From: Candidatus Parvarchaeota archaeon
Lineage (GTDB): Archaea; Nanobdellota; Nanobdellia; B33-G15
Direction: 5' to 3'
Length of the DNA: 48,619 nucleotides
Assembly: GCA_017608385.1 (NCBI GenBank)
Contig: JAFCFZ010000003.1
Location: 1-48,619 of the forward strand
The position numbers and the translations under genes were made by a program. Shown in pieces: positions 2,997 through 45,436 of this stretch (within the stretch, counting starts at the first letter, position 1; each line of letters starts with the position of its first letter). A model generated the notes under the pieces. The model saw only the letters and a program-made list of their open reading frames with translations. It did not search any database and was not told the origin of the DNA.

Positions 2997-3653
2997 CTAA
3001 AGGAACTCCTCAAACTCCTTAATTGGGATTATACCACTATTTAACATACCTAGACAACCATGATAAAGAACCCATTCAGGGCAACTATCTTTTTTCTCCT
3101 CTTCCAAACCACAAAGTTTCCAAATTGGGTTTTCTATTGGTTTGACGCTAAATCTTGGTTTGCCTGATTTACCAACTCTTGGTTTATCTGAATGGTATAA
3201 ATAGTACACTGTCAATTCAAAAGACTCATTAGCTATTGTTTCTCCATTTTTTTTTGTGAAAACATTCATTTCACTTATCGCAGGGATGAATATTTCCATG
3301 TTCTTTGGGTTAAATTTCTCATTTTTATATTCTTTATTTGAAAAGAAACTGCAACTTACTGATTCATTGATTCTTGTTATAATATCTTTATTTTCTGGAA
3401 TTTTTTCCCCTTTTTTTATATCAAAAAAGACCCATCTCTCTGTTTCAGGGTCAATTTTAGGGTCATAATACCCTTCTAATTTTTTAAGTGTTATATCACA
3501 ACTCTTTGAAAGCTTTTCAATACCTTTTCTTTTAAAAAGTAGCTCGTATGTTCTTTCATCATAAGGGATTAGTGCTGCATCTGCTTGCCTAACAATATTC
3601 CTATAACTCTTTAGTTTCAGATTACCACCCCATAATAAGATGGAAAAATCCAT
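2997..3653 (-). CDS. Uncharacterised soluble protein, possibly cut short by an in-frame TAG
   Basis: The 218-aa protein has no recognised domain. It has a hydrophobic N-terminus (MDFSILLWGGNLK), a central KK/EK-rich region and a Cys/Trp-rich end (IWKLCGLEEE, PEWVLYHGCLGML). The stop is TAG at 2997-2999, but the same frame stays open for 40 more codons to a TAA at 2874-2876, and the predicted peptide there looks coding (KVPGFESLVRRVEGLEGMI). The original gene may therefore be about 258 aa. The ATG is directly preceded by the repeated leader TTTTCAAAATTCTTTTAAA. Confidence 0.65.
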   Translation of the reverse strand: MDFSILLWGGNLKLKSYRNIVRQADAALIPYDERTYELLFKRKGIEKLSKSCDITLKKLEGYYDPKIDPETERWVFFDIKKGEKIPENKDIITRINESVSCSFFSNKEYKNEKFNPKNMEIFIPAISEMNVFTKKNGETIANESFELTVYYLYHSDKPRVGKSGKPRFSVKPIENPIWKLCGLEEEKKDSCPEWVLYHGCLGMLNSGIIPIKEFEEFL

Positions 3654-19412: not shown

Positions 19413-19934
19413 TTACTTTTTCTTTTTACTTTCTTTTTTACTTTCTTTTTTACTTTCTTTTTTACTTTCTTTTTTACTTTCTTTTTTATCTTCTTTTTTA
19501 CTTTCTTCTTTTGGTAGTTCTTTTGGAAATTCTTCCTCAGTAGCTTCTTCAGCTGGAGCTTCCTCTTCAGTAGCTTTTTCCTCAGTAGCTTCTTCAGCTG
19601 GAGCTTCCTCTTCAGTAGCTTTTTCCTCAGTAGCTTCTTCAGCTGGAGCTTCCTCTTCAGTAGCTTTTTCCGTAGATTCATCTTCAACTGGATTTTCAGG
19701 AGCTTCTTCTACCTCAACATCCTTTGCATCAGATGCACCAATTACTTTTCCAATTGCGAATTTTCTTAGAACCTTCTCAACCTTCACTTTAACTTTATCG
19801 CCCTCTTTTGTTCCTGGAACAAAGATAACGAAACCTTCAATTTTTGCGATACCATCGCCTTTTTCACCAACTGCTTCGATGGTGATGTCATATTCTGTGC
19901 CTTCTTCAACAGGCTTAGTAAACTGTCTTTCCAT
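19413..19934 (-). CDS. TRAM-domain protein with a long repetitive charged tail
   Basis: Residues 10-65 are a TRAM RNA-binding domain (EGTEYDITIEAVGEKGDGIAKIEGFVIFVPGTKEGDKVKVKVEKVLRKFAIGKVI). The rest is low complexity: three 15-residue repeats of the type ATEEKATEEEAPAEE, then KKES units, ending in Lys. Archaeal single-TRAM proteins act as RNA chaperones; the tail is unusual. The start at 19934 is fixed by GGAGGT 4 nt upstream; a longer frame to 19985 lacks this. A TTTATAAATA box lies at about 19990-19999. Confidence 0.85.
   Translation of the reverse strand: MERQFTKPVEEGTEYDITIEAVGEKGDGIAKIEGFVIFVPGTKEGDKVKVKVEKVLRKFAIGKVIGASDAKDVEVEEAPENPVEDESTEKATEEEAPAEEATEEKATEEEAPAEEATEEKATEEEAPAEEATEEEFPKELPKEESKKEDKKESKKESKKESKKESKKESKKKK
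19434..19494. repeat. 12-nt tandem repeats coding for KKES
   Basis: About five units of the type TTTCTTTTTTAC (plus-strand view) are nearly identical, so copy number is likely to vary by slippage without breaking the frame. Confidence 0.75.
19535..19669. repeat. 45-nt tandem repeats in the TRAM gene
   Basis: Three nearly identical 45-nt units contain CAGCTGGAGCTTCCTCTTCA and encode the 15-residue acidic repeat. Boundaries are approximate. Confidence 0.75.
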
Positions 19935-20027
19935 ATAATTACCTCCGTAAACTGTGACTTTAATGTCTTGATATGCTCCATTCATAGGTATTTATAAATT
20001 TAATTGATTTCACAACGTTGAAAATTA

Positions 20028-36789: not shown

Positions 36790-36993
36790 TTACTTTATAA
36801 CTAATTTTACATCAGATTCATTCACAGTTTCTCTTCCTGCGTGTTTTGCAAGAGTTTTAGCTTGACTACTTATCTCCACTCCCACATCTTTTATTTGTTC
36901 ACACATTTTTTCCAAGGATTCTTTACTGATTTTCATACCGTGTTTTTTGGTCTCTTTTAGCATTATCCTTTTTATGACTGTTTTTGGAATCAT
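36790..36993 (-). CDS. Archaeal histone
   Basis: The 67-aa protein has the complete histone fold: IPKTVIKRIMLKE, GMKISKESLEKMCEQIKDVGVEISSQAKTLAKHAGRETVNESDVKLVIK. The AKHAGRETV segment with the RT pair and the final helix match HMf-type histones. It wraps and compacts DNA. TTTATA on the minus strand begins 29 nt before the ATG. Confidence 0.95.
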   Translation of the reverse strand: MIPKTVIKRIMLKETKKHGMKISKESLEKMCEQIKDVGVEISSQAKTLAKHAGRETVNESDVKLVIK

Positions 36994-39753: not shown

Positions 39754-39827
39754 TGCCCCCACCAGGATTTGAACCTGGGTTACAGGGTCCGCAACCCTGC
39801 GTTCTATCCGTACTAAACTATGGGGGC
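39754..39827 (-). tRNA. tRNA-Arg (anticodon GCG)
   Basis: The cloverleaf reads acceptor GCCCCCA/TGGGGGC, D-stem GTTT/GAAC, anticodon arm CAGGG-TTGCGGA-CCCTG and T-arm CCAGG-TTCAAAT-CCTGG, with discriminator A and no encoded CCA. The anticodon GCG reads CGC/CGU. The first G is also the last base of the argS stop codon TAG. Confidence 0.95.
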
Positions 39828-41404
39828 TACATTTTTTCAGGAACCTGAATATTCAATAAAAACATTGCCTTTTCAAGAATATTATGAACAGATTTTACTA
39901 AAACCAGTCTGAAATTTCTTTTGTCCTTATGCACTTCTTTAAGAACAGGTATTTTTTCATAGAAAGAATTGAATATTTCTGCTAGTTCATGAGCATAGTT
40001 AGCAATTAAATTTGGTTTGAATTGATCTCCAGCATTTTCAACTATTTGAGGAAACTGCGCCATTTTTCTTAATAATTTCTTTTCCTCCTCCTCTATTTCG
40101 GGCCATTTGAAATCACTTATCTTAGCTTTTTCAAAAATATGTTTGGCTCTTACAGCAGAATATTGTAAGTAGGGACCTGTGTTTCCTTTTAACCTTAACA
40201 TTTCATCCCAATTGAAAATAATATCTCTCTTTGGTTCCACCTTCAATATAGAATAGTTAAGAGCACTCAAACCCACTTCTTTCGCCACTTTTTTATTGAT
40301 CTTCTTTGCTCTTTCAAGGCTTTCATTTATTACATCTTCTGCAAAAATAACTTTTCCTTCTCTTGTTGACATTTTTCCTTCAGGAAGACTAACATAACCA
40401 TAATAAACATGATAACATTCTTTAGCCCATTTAAGTCCTAATAATTCAAGTGTTTTGAATAATTGCTTAAAATGAAGTATTTGTTCTGGTCCAACTACAT
40501 AAATCATTCTGTCAAAACCATATTCTTTTTTTCTATCTATTGCTGTAGCAACATCTCTAGTCAGATATAATGTAGTCCCATCTTTTTTTTGGATAATTGT
40601 AGTTGATAAATTATCAAAATTAACAATCCACGCACCATCCTCTCCTTTTTTTGCCAGCTTTTTCTTTTTTAACTTTTCTATGATATCTTTCCCCATATCA
40701 CTGTACTTACTTTCTCCATCATAATTATCAAATTCTGCATTCAAAATCTTATAAATTCTTTTAAATTCTTTCAAACTCAATTTAGTGAATTTCTTCCATA
40801 ATTTTGTAAATTCTTTATTTCCTTCTTCTAATCCTTTATACACTTCTCTTGCATTATCCTCTAAAGATTCATTTTTTTTAGATTCCTGATGAAATTTAAC
40901 ATAAACTCTCATCATTTCTTTTGTTGGATTTTTTAATAATTCAAACTCATTACCCCATAATTTGTAAGCAAGAATCAACTTACCAAATTGAGTTCCAGTG
41001 TCCCCATACCAATTGACTTTCCTTACTTTATTTCCTAAAAATTCAAAAATTTTCACAAATGAAATTCCAAGTATTGTGTTTCTTAGATGACCAACATGCA
41101 TTGGTTTTGCTATGTTGGGACTTGAATACTCCAAAAGAATGTTTTTTCCTTGCTTTTGCTTTCCATAATCTTTTTTTTGGACCTCATCAATTATTTTTTG
41201 ACCCATTTTTGACCAATTAATATGAAAATTAATATAACTCCCTTTGATTTCTGAAGTAACCCAGACAGGTAATTTTACCTTTTTTAATATAGTTTTAGGT
41301 TTTTTATTGAATGATTTTGCTGTAAAATCTCCAAAATCAGAATCCTTTATTTCCAAACCAACAACTTTTTCAAGATCTTTTCTTAGTTTTTCCCATAAAT
41401 ACAT
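39827..41404 (-). CDS. argS: Arginyl-tRNA synthetase
   Basis: The 525-aa class I synthetase has EYSSPNIAKPMHVGHLRNTILG (HIGH-type motif HVGH), NWYGDTGTQFGKLI, GKMSTREGKV (KMSKS type), and a C-terminal anticodon-binding helical domain (GPYLQYSAVRAKHIF). It charges tRNA-Arg. The stop codon overlaps the 5' base of tRNA-Arg(GCG), and two more tRNA-Arg genes lie upstream on the same strand. Confidence 0.96.
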   Translation of the reverse strand: MYLWEKLRKDLEKVVGLEIKDSDFGDFTAKSFNKKPKTILKKVKLPVWVTSEIKGSYINFHINWSKMGQKIIDEVQKKDYGKQKQGKNILLEYSSPNIAKPMHVGHLRNTILGISFVKIFEFLGNKVRKVNWYGDTGTQFGKLILAYKLWGNEFELLKNPTKEMMRVYVKFHQESKKNESLEDNAREVYKGLEEGNKEFTKLWKKFTKLSLKEFKRIYKILNAEFDNYDGESKYSDMGKDIIEKLKKKKLAKKGEDGAWIVNFDNLSTTIIQKKDGTTLYLTRDVATAIDRKKEYGFDRMIYVVGPEQILHFKQLFKTLELLGLKWAKECYHVYYGYVSLPEGKMSTREGKVIFAEDVINESLERAKKINKKVAKEVGLSALNYSILKVEPKRDIIFNWDEMLRLKGNTGPYLQYSAVRAKHIFEKAKISDFKWPEIEEEEKKLLRKMAQFPQIVENAGDQFKPNLIANYAHELAEIFNSFYEKIPVLKEVHKDKRNFRLVLVKSVHNILEKAMFLLNIQVPEKM

Positions 41405-41431
41405 AATAAATAATTCTGTAACAGGACAATT

Positions 41432-42172
41432 TTAATGTTTTGTTAAGGCCTTTATTATCTCTGAACCTAATTTTACTGTGATATTATTAACATCTTTTTC
41501 AGGATTAATTTCCACCAAATCTGCTCCGATCAATCCATCCATTTTTTTTATCTTTCCAATAAAATAAAGCAACTCTCTACTTGTTATTCCTCCTGGTTCA
41601 GGCCAATCAACACCAGGAGCAAAACCAGGATCAACACCATCAATGTCTATACTAAGGTAAAATTTCTTTCCTCTCAAAAGACTCATTAAGTCCTCGGTGA
41701 CTCTTTTGATTCCTTTTTGCATTATTTCATAGGACGAAAAGAAGACAAGGTTGTTCTTTTTTATGAAATTCATCTCATCATTACTCCATTTTCTCAAACC
41801 TATAAAAACCACTCCTGAAACAATTTGGTTTTCCACTAATTTTCTCACAAAATCTTCATGAGTAACATTGTCAAAACCAATTTCACAATCAGGATGCGCA
41901 TCCATCATAACTAAAAGCGGTTTTTTCTTTGTTCCGTTTATTAAGGAATAAGTTATGGAATGATCTCCCCCTATTCCAACAAAGAATCTTGAAGGAACAG
42001 CCTCCTCTATATTTTTTTGATTTTCAATTAAATCTTGAGAAGTTTCTACATCTAAAATATCAAATTTAATTTTTTCATAGTCTTTTGATAACATCTCAAC
42101 AATTTTATCAGGCGCCTTATCAGTATCAGATTCTTTCATGCTTCCATGTTTGAATGGAATTTTCAATAACAT
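41432..42172 (-). CDS. speB: Ureohydrolase (agmatinase/arginase family)
   Basis: The 246-aa protein holds the full binuclear Mn site: GGDHS, MDAHPD, and SIDIDGVDPGFAPG. The PEPGGITSRELL segment follows. The family hydrolyses agmatine, arginine or related guanidino compounds; its place ahead of argS supports an arginine-linked substrate. The ATG is one base after the 3' end of tRNA-Ala, so tRNA 3' processing would create a leaderless mRNA. Confidence 0.88.
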   Translation of the reverse strand: MLLKIPFKHGSMKESDTDKAPDKIVEMLSKDYEKIKFDILDVETSQDLIENQKNIEEAVPSRFFVGIGGDHSITYSLINGTKKKPLLVMMDAHPDCEIGFDNVTHEDFVRKLVENQIVSGVVFIGLRKWSNDEMNFIKKNNLVFFSSYEIMQKGIKRVTEDLMSLLRGKKFYLSIDIDGVDPGFAPGVDWPEPGGITSRELLYFIGKIKKMDGLIGADLVEINPEKDVNNITVKLGSEIIKALTKH

Positions 42173-42173
42173 A

Positions 42174-42245
42174 TGGACTGGCTGGGAGTTGAACCCAGAG
42201 CCTCCTGCGTGCGAGGCAGGCGATCTACCATTGAGCTACCAGCCC
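42174..42245 (-). tRNA. tRNA-Ala (anticodon CGC)
   Basis: The acceptor GGGCTGG/CCAGTCC contains the G3:U70 pair that defines alanine identity. The anticodon arm is CCTGC-CTCGCAC-GCAGG and the T-arm CTGGG-TTCAACT-CCCAG, with discriminator A and no encoded CCA. Confidence 0.95.
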
Positions 42246-42276
42246 AATGAATCTCACATTATTCCTCTTAAAAAAT

Positions 42277-42813
42277 TTAGTTTTCCACAAAATTTTTCCA
42301 GTCACGCTTTCTTATGAAAAAAGACAAAGTAATTGTGGTCACTATATTATATAATAAGAGGGGAAATGCAAAATCCATATTGGGTAATGTTAAAGTATTC
42401 AGGTAAAAATAATCTATTAAGTCATTTGAAAGGAAAAATAAGAGAACTATTGCAAGATATTTGTCATCTACCTTTTGAAATCCAAATACTAAAACTTGAG
42501 AGATGAGCCATAAATGTCCAATTATCAAAAAGATTGAATCATCTATTAATAATGGGCCTGAGAAAAAGGACCAATAAAAGAAATAAGCCAAAAGAGTCCA
42601 AATCCCATACTTGATACTTGCCATAAAAGCTATTGGTTTGAATTCTTTTTTCCATAAAGAAGCAATAAATAAGATCACTGCAATGGGACAATCTATTAAA
42701 AATATCCAAATAAGGGGATTAGTTCTTTGCAAATTGATTTCATATGTAAGCATTCCAGTGTAGAGTGCAAAGAGATTCAATATAATTATTAGACTTATCC
42801 ATGTTTTATTCAT
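42277..42813 (-). CDS. DUF1405-like membrane protein
   Basis: The 178-aa protein has about six membrane helices, with NPLIWIFLIDCPIAVILFIASL, KYGIWTLLAYF and LSNDLIDYFY, the layout of DUF1405 proteins of archaea and Bacillus. Function unknown. The ATG is two bases after the 3' end of tRNA-Arg(TCG), and tRNA-Ala follows 31 nt downstream. Confidence 0.8.
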   Translation of the reverse strand: MNKTWISLIIILNLFALYTGMLTYEINLQRTNPLIWIFLIDCPIAVILFIASLWKKEFKPIAFMASIKYGIWTLLAYFFYWSFFSGPLLIDDSIFLIIGHLWLISQVLVFGFQKVDDKYLAIVLLFFLSNDLIDYFYLNTLTLPNMDFAFPLLLYNIVTTITLSFFIRKRDWKNFVEN

Positions 42814-42815
42814 AA

Positions 42816-42889
42816 TAGGCCCACAGGGATTTGAACCCTGGTTTGCCGGTCCGAAGCCGGCTGTCCTATCCAGACTAGACTATGAGCCT
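42816..42889 (-). tRNA. tRNA-Arg (anticodon TCG)
   Basis: The acceptor AGGCTCA/TGGGCCT, D-arm GTCT/GGAC, anticodon arm GCCGG-CTTCGGA-CCGGC and T-arm CAGGG-TTCAAAT-CCCTG form a complete cloverleaf. The discriminator is A and CCA is not encoded. The anticodon TCG reads CGA/CGN. Confidence 0.94.
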
Positions 42890-42920
42890 GATAATTATTC
42901 TTTTTGCAGGGTTTTTAATT

Positions 42921-44099
42921 TTATCTTAAAAGAAAATATAGGAATGGCATTGAAAAAACAAGGAAACCAGCATACATTCCAAAAACACTCATTGAAAACA
43001 TTTGTAAGAGGAAACCTCCTGCAAAACAACCAAGAAAACTGCTAAAATCTTTCACAGTTTCAGTAACTCCAGTAAAACCACCAATATTTTTATGATTGGC
43101 CATTTCTCCAACCATAATACTTACTGAAGGCATTATCATACTAAAACCAATATTGGCTATTAGAACAGAAAGCATAATTGAAAAAAAGTCATTACTGAAT
43201 AACACTAGAAAAAACCCTAGAGAGACCATTAAAACTCCTATTGCAATTGGTTTGCTTTCTCCATGTTTTTCTATAAATCCAAGTAATAGAAGAGGCATTA
43301 TTATCCAAGGAGTAGAAGAAGCAATAGAAAGAATAATACCTATTTCTGCAATAGAATACCCAAGATTGTTCATTATAATTGGAAGAAAAGATCCTAAGAA
43401 TGAAATTCCAGTACCGTATAATAAAGTCCCTAATAATACTCCATATGCTTTTCTTCCCTTTTTGAAGAATTCTTTTATTCCTTTTACTAATAAATCCATT
43501 GATTTGCTTTCTGCCGATTTTCTATCTGGAAGTCTTCTTGAAACAAATAACATTAGAATAAAGGACAATGAAAGTATGTAGAAAGGAGCTTTCCAAGAAT
43601 AATATATGATAATAATGGATCCTATTATCGGTGCTATTACTAATGAAATATTTCTAACTATTGTTGATAAACTTACTTCCTCTTCCATGAATTTTTTTGG
43701 AACACTACGTATTGCACTCCAATATGATACCCAATACAATGATCCTAAAACAGAATGAATTATTCTCAAAACAATCAAAGAAAAAGTGTCTTCAACAACA
43801 GCATACATAAATGTGATGAAAAAATAAGCGATAAGAGCAAATGTTATTATTTTTTTAGACCCTATCTTGTCACATAAGGCTCCAGCAGGAATATCTGTAA
43901 AAAACTTTATTATACCCCATAATCCAAGAACAAAACCACTTATTATCAATGATCCAGTAATTTCATTTATCCTAATACTAAATATTGGAGTTGCAAGACC
44001 CCAGAAAAAATTGAATAACCCACCTATTATGATTATTGGAATAGTTTGTTTGAAATATTTTTTTGAACTTATTGCCTTTACAAATTCATGCCAAGCCAT
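42921..44099 (-). CDS. Major facilitator superfamily transporter
   Basis: The 392-aa protein has about 12 membrane helices and the MFS loop 2-3 signature FTDIPAGALCDKIGSKKI. The loop between the halves is basic (RRLPDRKSAESKSMDLL). The substrate is unknown; export of small molecules is typical of this branch. It is co-directional with the tRNA-Arg(TCG) gene. Confidence 0.92.
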   Translation of the reverse strand: MAWHEFVKAISSKKYFKQTIPIIIIGGLFNFFWGLATPIFSIRINEITGSLIISGFVLGLWGIIKFFTDIPAGALCDKIGSKKIITFALIAYFFITFMYAVVEDTFSLIVLRIIHSVLGSLYWVSYWSAIRSVPKKFMEEEVSLSTIVRNISLVIAPIIGSIIIIYYSWKAPFYILSLSFILMLFVSRRLPDRKSAESKSMDLLVKGIKEFFKKGRKAYGVLLGTLLYGTGISFLGSFLPIIMNNLGYSIAEIGIILSIASSTPWIIMPLLLLGFIEKHGESKPIAIGVLMVSLGFFLVLFSNDFFSIMLSVLIANIGFSMIMPSVSIMVGEMANHKNIGGFTGVTETVKDFSSFLGCFAGGFLLQMFSMSVFGMYAGFLVFSMPFLYFLLR

Positions 44100-44131
44100 T
44101 TGATTAGAAAATCTGTATCCCTATTTAATTT

Positions 44132-45313
44132 TTACTTAATAAAAGAAATATTTTGAATTGTTTTACTAAAATTTATTACAGTATTGTTTATTTTATCTAT
44201 CAATAAGGAACCATTAAAGTGACTTCCAAATTCATAAAGAATAGCATTCGAAATATAATAATTCAAATTAACTAAAATACCTAAGAGATACATAAGTCCC
44301 AAGAAACCAACAATTTTTAGATATATAATCATATCAGACTCATTTTCAATAAGCATGGCAAATGGAAAAAACCAGATGAGATACCAAGGCATCTGCCATG
44401 AAAATAAAAAGAAACTTAATGTAGGTAATATAATCAAGATATTATTCTTGTCTTTTAATTTTTCTATACTTTTTAGAATAATTATCCCAAAAATTATTAT
44501 GGTAATTATTGATAAAGGATTCAGAAAAATATGTCCATAATATAAAGGATTTGTGTAAATTATAGAATAAGTTTCATTGTTTGAAACATGCTTTATAAAA
44601 CTAGCTCCCATATTGGTTTGCAATGAGAATAAAAACAAGAGAGGGATCATTCCAATAAAGAACCATACTGCTTTCTTTTTAGCCTTGATCAAAAATAAAG
44701 GCAAAATAAATATAGGATATACCTTAATTTGAACAGCGATTGCAAGAAATATTCCTGCTTTTGACCAATCTTCTTTTTTAAGGAAATAGATTGATAGGAG
44801 AAGGAACAAATTAGTAAGGGTTTCCATTTTACCTCCTGTTATTGTGATAAAGAAATCTGCAATAAAGAAAAATCCAACAAAGATCAAAAACCATCTTTTT
44901 TTGGTGAAACTCTTATCGTCTCCCATTTTGAGCAATAAAAGAAGATTGATATTAACTATCACGAAAAGAACAATATTCACCATTATTCTTTGTATTTGTA
45001 AATTTGCTGGAATTTTAGCAAAAACAGAATAAAACAATAAAACAGCAGGAGGATACTCATAGGTTAAGTTAGGATGTCCCATAGTTTCTTCGATATCAAA
45101 TAAAGAATCTTCTGAAACATCATAATTATCCATAATGAATTTGTCATTGATATCATAAACACCCAATCCATATTCCCAAAAAAGATGACCATATAGTAAA
45201 TTTCTATTTCTATCTCTTTGGAGAGTTATAATATCCATTACTGGTATGAAAATAATACCTAATACAAACGAAATAATGAAGAATTTTCTGTATTTTTTTG
45301 CGGTTTCAATCAT
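44132..45313 (-). CDS. GT87-type polyprenol-dependent membrane glycosyltransferase
   Basis: The 393-aa protein has about ten membrane helices and an early extracellular loop (YGHLFWEYGLGVYDINDKF...TYEYPPAVLLFYSVFAKIP), with the YEYPP motif of GT-C/DUF2029 enzymes. Further WQMPWYLIWFFPF resembles the family end. It should transfer a mannosyl-like sugar to lipids or proteins on the outer face. Directly upstream is tRNA-Arg(CCT). Confidence 0.85.
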   Translation of the reverse strand: MIETAKKYRKFFIISFVLGIIFIPVMDIITLQRDRNRNLLYGHLFWEYGLGVYDINDKFIMDNYDVSEDSLFDIEETMGHPNLTYEYPPAVLLFYSVFAKIPANLQIQRIMVNIVLFVIVNINLLLLLKMGDDKSFTKKRWFLIFVGFFFIADFFITITGGKMETLTNLFLLLSIYFLKKEDWSKAGIFLAIAVQIKVYPIFILPLFLIKAKKKAVWFFIGMIPLLFLFSLQTNMGASFIKHVSNNETYSIIYTNPLYYGHIFLNPLSIITIIIFGIIILKSIEKLKDKNNILIILPTLSFFLFSWQMPWYLIWFFPFAMLIENESDMIIYLKIVGFLGLMYLLGILVNLNYYISNAILYEFGSHFNGSLLIDKINNTVINFSKTIQNISFIK

Positions 45314-45361
45314 TCAAATCCCATAATTCTATATTTTGGTGATTTGTTTTAAACTTTACTA

Positions 45362-45436
45362 AGGGCCCGCGGGGATTTGAACCCCGGACCTGCAGCTTAG
45401 GAGGCTGCTGCCCTATCCGGACTAGGCTACGGGCCC
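45362..45436 (-). tRNA. tRNA-Arg (anticodon CCT)
   Basis: The acceptor GGGCCCG/CGGGCCC, D-arm GCCT/GGGC, anticodon arm GCAGC-CTCCTAA-GCTGC and T-arm CGGGG-TTCAAAT-CCCCG are complete. The base after the stem is T rather than the usual A or G, so the discriminator is U73. CCA is not encoded. The anticodon CCT reads AGG. Confidence 0.92.

Follow-up and report, generated by a model that had tools for sequence, protein, structure and literature searches.

The gene for tRNA-Sec, selC, is nested in or overlaps selB in Alphaproteobacteria and in some Gammaproteobacteria and Nitrospirae (Mukai 2021, PMC8124441). Processing of such a transcript would yield a nonstop mRNA, and the mRNA and the tRNA have been proposed as alternative products; a model of alternative mRNA/tRNA processing is thus already published for selB/selC (PMC8124441). 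Overlaps of tRNA genes are also found in animal mitochondria (PMC4284800), and an overlap of cox1 and tRNA-Lys in Armadillidium is among the cases cited in PMC8124441. In Nanoarchaeum equitans, leaderless tRNAs are produced without RNase P from promoters located 26-27 nt upstream (PMC10100707). A search of the literature on argS/tRNA-Arg operons and on linkage between genes for synthetases and their cognate tRNAs returned nothing relevant.

Here we describe a junction of argS and tRNA-Arg(GCG) in a 48,619-nt stretch of DNA from a Candidatus Parvarchaeota archaeon (the window). As in selB/selC, the tRNA gene overlaps the 3' end of the gene for its protein partner, and both genes read in one direction (here on the minus strand), although the partner in this case is an aminoacyl-tRNA synthetase. 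Unlike in selB/selC, where a whole or half tRNA lies inside the ORF and the arrangement is kept across many species, the overlap amounts to one base (39827) and was found in one archaeal genome, being absent from the related genome G001. The argS/tRNA-Arg pair works at most like the known cases and lacks two defining features of selB/selC, namely nesting and conservation. Like in animal mitochondria, tRNA ends may act as processing sites of a polycistron, and a 5' cut can fall in the stop codon of the upstream gene; in mitochondria, however, promoters are very few and stop codons left as UA are completed by an A-tail (polyadenylation), whereas most tRNA genes here have their own TATA box. With N. 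equitans, the archaeon shares a small archaeal genome, a TATA-like box at a near-fixed distance from the first base of the tRNA (G1) and the expectation of little or no leader but, unlike N. equitans, which has no RNase P, it encodes RNase P RNA.

The shared base of argS and tRNA-Arg(GCG)

The genome (G000) is a 700-kb draft in 31 contigs that is 94% complete, and the window is its contig C29. Enzymes for cutting both ends of tRNAs are encoded: the archaeal RNase P RNA (RF00373, 118.8 bits against a cut-off of 84), the RNase P protein p30 (PF01876, score at the cut-off) and tRNase Z (TIGR02651, 319 bits, above the cut-off). Two exosome-type RNase PH genes are also present. Together with a histone-like ORF, these genes mark the genome as archaeal, and its size and relatives are suggestive of a DPANN-type lineage. 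The gene order on the minus strand of the window is tRNA-Arg(CCT), GT87-like, MFS, tRNA-Arg(TCG), DUF1405, tRNA-Ala(CGC), arginase-family gene, argS, tRNA-Arg(GCG) and an ORF of 215 aa. The features of interest are as follows.

39754..39827, minus strand: tRNA-Arg(GCG), 74 nt, without encoded CCA (ARAGORN and Rfam RF00005, 67 bits)
39829-39827, minus strand: argS stop codon TAG, with the G at 39827 common to G1 of tRNA-Arg(GCG)
39827..41404, minus strand: argS, arginyl-tRNA synthetase (ArgRS), 525 aa, complete, coordinates including the stop codon (PF00750, E 7.6e-74; PF05746)
41432..42172, minus strand: arginase/agmatinase-family gene (speB-like; PF00491, E 5.3e-47), directly upstream of argS
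42174..42245, minus strand: tRNA-Ala(CGC), ending just before the start codon of the speB-like gene
42816..42889, minus strand: tRNA-Arg(TCG), 2 nt upstream of the ATG of the DUF1405 gene (42813)
45362..45436, minus strand: tRNA-Arg(CCT), the last of three tRNA-Arg genes that this strand carries within 6 kb

The genome has at least three tRNA-Arg genes, and a 6-kb stretch of one strand (39754-45436) holds those with anticodons GCG, TCG and CCT together with argS and the arginase-family gene. Elsewhere in the window, a histone-like ORF (36790-36993) was identified by eye, as was a TRAM-domain-like ORF (19413-19985) whose long, low-complexity tail repeats EEAPAEEATEEK and KESK units.

The earlier note had read the last base of the argS stop codon as the first base of the tRNA, and both its coordinates and its reading proved right by the sequence, the ORF, ARAGORN and Rfam. 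The tRNA was placed at 39754..39827 independently by ARAGORN and by the Rfam tRNA model; its anticodon is GCG in the ARAGORN reading, and its acceptor stem pairs GCCCCCA with TGGGGGC, followed by A73. The argS frame ends in CCT GAA AAA ATG TAG and runs directly into GCCCCCATAGTTTAG, the minus-strand junction reading GAAAAAATGTAGCCCCCATAG, so that the third base of the TAG and G1 are one and the same, base 39827. A minimum-energy fold of the junction RNA, in which no cloverleaf was seen, was not used as evidence.

The ArgRS encoded in the window is complete up to its C-terminal Met. PF05746 (DALR_1) matches over its full profile (positions 1-117 of 117) at residues 413-525, up to the last residue. 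The alignment with ten related ArgRS proteins extends to this same C-terminus, where most of them have EKM, EEM or a near variant. The argS stop codon is therefore genuine and in its normal place. A lengthening or shortening of argS to reach the tRNA was ruled out because the C-terminus matches those of the relatives and, as judged from the sequence, nothing but spacer is missing at this junction.

Among 127 tRNA genes in four genomes, one other plausible overlap with a protein gene was found, involving a methyltransferase frame in G004. This frame (L188, 702-1463; best Pfam matches PCMT and GCD14) enters the downstream tRNA gene by 21 nt, which is more than the 1 nt shared by argS and tRNA-Arg(GCG). 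Some short frames (80-111 codons) that start upstream of tRNAs and have their stops within them, at -10 or -15, were rejected as probably due to chance. An exact 1-nt overlap is uncommon; the one at argS was seen once, in a draft assembly, and stands at the far end of a graded series of short spacers.

The locus in related genomes

One relative of the same family was compared, G001, which belongs to a sister genus and whose ArgRS is 55% identical. A scan of named genomes with an ArgRS alignment gave mainly Clostridia, few archaea and no close relatives. The earlier note had itself named absence of the overlap from close relatives as counting against its proposal, and in G001 argS ends in TAA, and a 31-nt spacer with a TATA-like box separates it from the orthologous tRNA-Arg(GCG). 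This spacer, which starts with AAGTTATTAACTC and contains GTTATTAAC, was read straight from the sequence; a two-genome alignment of the junction misplaced the spacer and was set aside. The shared base is thus absent from the sole same-family relative examined, and no argS/tRNA overlap was found at the other relatives' argS loci scanned for tRNAs. The tRNA-Arg(GCG) gene of G001 (L065, about 3145-3235) carries an insertion of ~20 nt in its T-loop region, which probably represents a noncanonically placed intron, and was missed by ARAGORN.

The order of genes in G001 (tRNA-Arg(TCG), tRNA-Ala(CGC), speB-like, argS and tRNA-Arg(GCG)) matches that in the window, minus the DUF1405 gene between the first two tRNAs. 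In G002, tRNA-Arg(CCT) lies 43 nt downstream of argS with a TATA-like box in between; in two f4 genomes, tRNA-Arg(GCG) lies about 0.7 kb downstream of argS; and in G006, tRNA-Arg(TCG) and tRNA-Ala(CGC) are found upstream of argS. By sequence, then, part of the neighbourhood is conserved but the overlap is not. Half of the tRNAs within 1.5 kb of argS in relatives (5/10, one genome per family) are tRNA-Arg, with a p of about 0.006 when set against an assumed typical share of 5/38 in a small and phylogenetically uneven sample. Several related families likewise have argS and tRNA-Arg genes as neighbours.

Promoters, spacers and tRNA 3' ends

Most of the 35 tRNA genes of G000 have a TATA-like box starting 30-36 nt before G1. 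Two TATA-like boxes are relevant to argS and tRNA-Arg(GCG).

39852..39863, minus strand: TATA-like box GTTTTTATTGAA, beginning at -36 from G1 of tRNA-Arg(GCG), within the final codons of argS; candidate promoter of the tRNA
41427..41438, minus strand: TATA-like box ACATTAAAATTG, beginning at -34 from the argS ATG and overlapping the speB-like stop; candidate leaderless argS promoter

The offset of GTTTTTATTGAA falls in the range used by the tRNA promoters of the genome (-30 to -36). Its leave-one-out position-weight score is 4.37, ranking 25th among the 35 tRNA promoters, and synonymous recoding of the same argS peptide equals the match 14% of the time (P = 0.14). A promoter of tRNA-Arg(GCG) inside argS is thus plausible as a weak candidate. 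The tRNA could be transcribed from it with no shared transcript, the other outcome that the earlier note had named as counting against its proposal. ACATTAAAATTG, with a higher score of 6.12, lies above the 95th percentile of random positions.

A same-strand stop codon within 35 nt upstream was found for 12 of the 35 tRNA genes in a survey that counted open frames rather than curated genes, the sorted gaps being -1, 12, 22, 23, 31 and up. Strong TATA boxes of tRNA-Asp (gap 22) and tRNA-Ser (gap 23) begin at -34 and -32, respectively, inside the upstream frame. With spacing this tight, it is normal in this genome for a tRNA promoter to extend into the end of the upstream coding sequence, and argS is the extreme. 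At L061 (1489-1500), a tRNA-Pro(GGG) follows the stop codon of a HAD-like ORF by 12 nt (both identified by eye), and no TATA box is recognisable there (score -1.0).

The 3' side of the tRNA genes is more remarkable in this archaeal family than the argS overlap. In G000, the ATG of a same-strand ORF lies 1-4 nt past N73 in 7 of 35 tRNAs and, in G001, an ATG, GTG or TTG lies 0-1 nt past the tRNA end in 9 of 30. Only 1 of 62 tRNAs has such a junction in G002 and G004, which represent two other families (Fisher p about 1e-4), and the corresponding counts for ATG alone are 11/65 and 0/62 (p about 6e-4); these p-values are rough, as the comparison was framed after the pattern had been seen and the counts were read by hand. 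Similar junctions turned up in G006 in a pattern search.

42174-42172, minus strand: tRNA-Ala/speB-like junction in the window, the ATG sitting 1 nt past A73 of tRNA-Ala(CGC)
42816-42813, minus strand: tRNA-Arg(TCG)/DUF1405 junction in the window
Other junctions in G000: L002, L020, L024, L062 and L064
Junctions in G001: L065, L157, L158, L162, L164, L155, L160 and L171

Pfam matches confirm several of the genes downstream of tRNAs as real (exonuclease III-like, HAD, methyltransferase, GatC, HhH-GPD and GNAT), and two junctions are common to the two genera, namely tRNA-Ala(CGC) with the speB-like gene and tRNA-Val with an ORF (34% identity between the ORFs). No TATA box is visible inside the tRNA before the start codon of the speB-like gene (-7.98) or the DUF1405 gene (-2.53), unlike for argS and most tRNAs, and these two genes are therefore probably co-transcribed with the tRNA. 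If so, a tRNase Z cut would give leaderless mRNAs from both. The pattern of tRNA 3' ends next to start codons resembles the punctuation of mitochondrial transcripts by tRNAs.

Origin and consequences of the overlap

The overlap is best explained, in our judgement with reasonable though far from full confidence, by genome compaction with an embedded weak tRNA promoter and no dedicated regulatory device. The observations behind this reading are the overlap itself, the intact ArgRS, the spacer in G001, the short spacers throughout the genome and the genes for RNase P RNA and tRNase Z. A spacer of ~30 nt with a TATA-like box, as in G001, would have been lost in this lineage (loss appearing likelier than gain), so far that G1 of the tRNA came to supply the third base of the argS stop codon. 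Transcription of tRNA-Arg(GCG) would most likely be driven by the degenerate TATA element within the final codons of argS (about -36 to -25), so that the RNA starts at G1 or slightly upstream, and argS would be transcribed from its own leaderless-type promoter. In read-through argS transcripts that include the tRNA, RNase P cleavage would deprive the mRNA of its stop codon, presumably as a tolerated loss rather than a form of control. Against a tRNA promoter of its own, GTTTTTATTGAA is among the weakest of the genome; this weakness and its match by 14% of recodings mean that tRNA-Arg(GCG) could depend on argS transcription, and the excess of argS/tRNA-Arg neighbours in this class leaves room for selected co-expression.

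With no spacer between the genes, an argS mRNA cannot have its complete stop codon unless it also carries G1 of the tRNA. As the genome encodes RNase P RNA and p30, read-through RNA could be cleaved at this base, leaving an mRNA that ends in AUGUA without a stop; should the tRNA fold within the argS transcript, RNase P would separate the A of UAG from its G. To this extent, the cut within the stop codon suggested by the earlier note agrees with the geometry and with the encoded enzyme, but nothing shows that it is frequent or has a regulatory effect. The further proposal that each argS-tRNA transcript yields either translatable mRNA or mature tRNA-Arg, a choice linking the levels of ArgRS and tRNA-Arg, seems to us improbable. 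The one-base geometry, the RNase P genes, the lack of room for a terminator, the weak promoter of the tRNA and the recurrent neighbourhood are all compatible with such a switch, and the same model has been put forward for selB/selC (PMC8124441). Yet G001 has the same two genes with a 31-nt spacer and a TATA-like box, and with at least three tRNA-Arg genes tRNA-Arg(GCG) would be a poor single sensor of charging capacity. The link between enzyme and substrate levels is accordingly unsupported, the overlap being absent from G001 and the tRNA being one of several.

The weak tRNA promoter could also mean that tRNA-Arg(GCG) is mainly cut from argS read-through RNA, as in mitochondria, the mRNA ending in AUGUA being rescued as nonstop or given an A-rich tail by the exosome to form UAA, constitutively rather than as regulation. 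We regard this as unlikely, if less so than a switch. It would fit the two exosome-type RNase PH genes and the tRNA 3' ends that abut promoterless start codons in the same neighbourhood and genome (such as the speB-like start, -7.98); however, no archaeal tail is known to complete a stop codon, a junction of this kind at a stop codon occurs once in G000, a TATA-like box still lies at a suitable offset before the tRNA, and argS has a candidate promoter of its own (6.12). A broader version, in which the tRNAs of this family punctuate polycistrons as in animal mitochondria, with tRNase Z releasing leaderless mRNAs (as from tRNA-Ala to speB-like) and RNase P cutting in the argS stop codon to leave a UA-ended mRNA that is tailed or rescued, is more doubtful still. 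An assembly or consensus error that deleted bases between argS and the tRNA is very improbable: the genome is a draft of 31 contigs and the overlap is seen in one sequence only, but neither the reading frame nor the ArgRS C-terminus nor the tRNA shows any damage up to the shared base, about 30 nt would need to be missing, and other short gaps (12, 22 and 23 nt) exist in the genome.

Genome compaction thus remains the preferred reading. Outside organelles, it is rare for a tRNA gene to overlap the gene for its protein partner, and the argS/tRNA-Arg overlap sets up a testable conflict between translation stop and 5' processing of the tRNA. The junctions between tRNA ends and start codons would mean that tRNA punctuation of the mitochondrial kind has a counterpart in prokaryotes and that leaderless mRNAs can arise by a second route.
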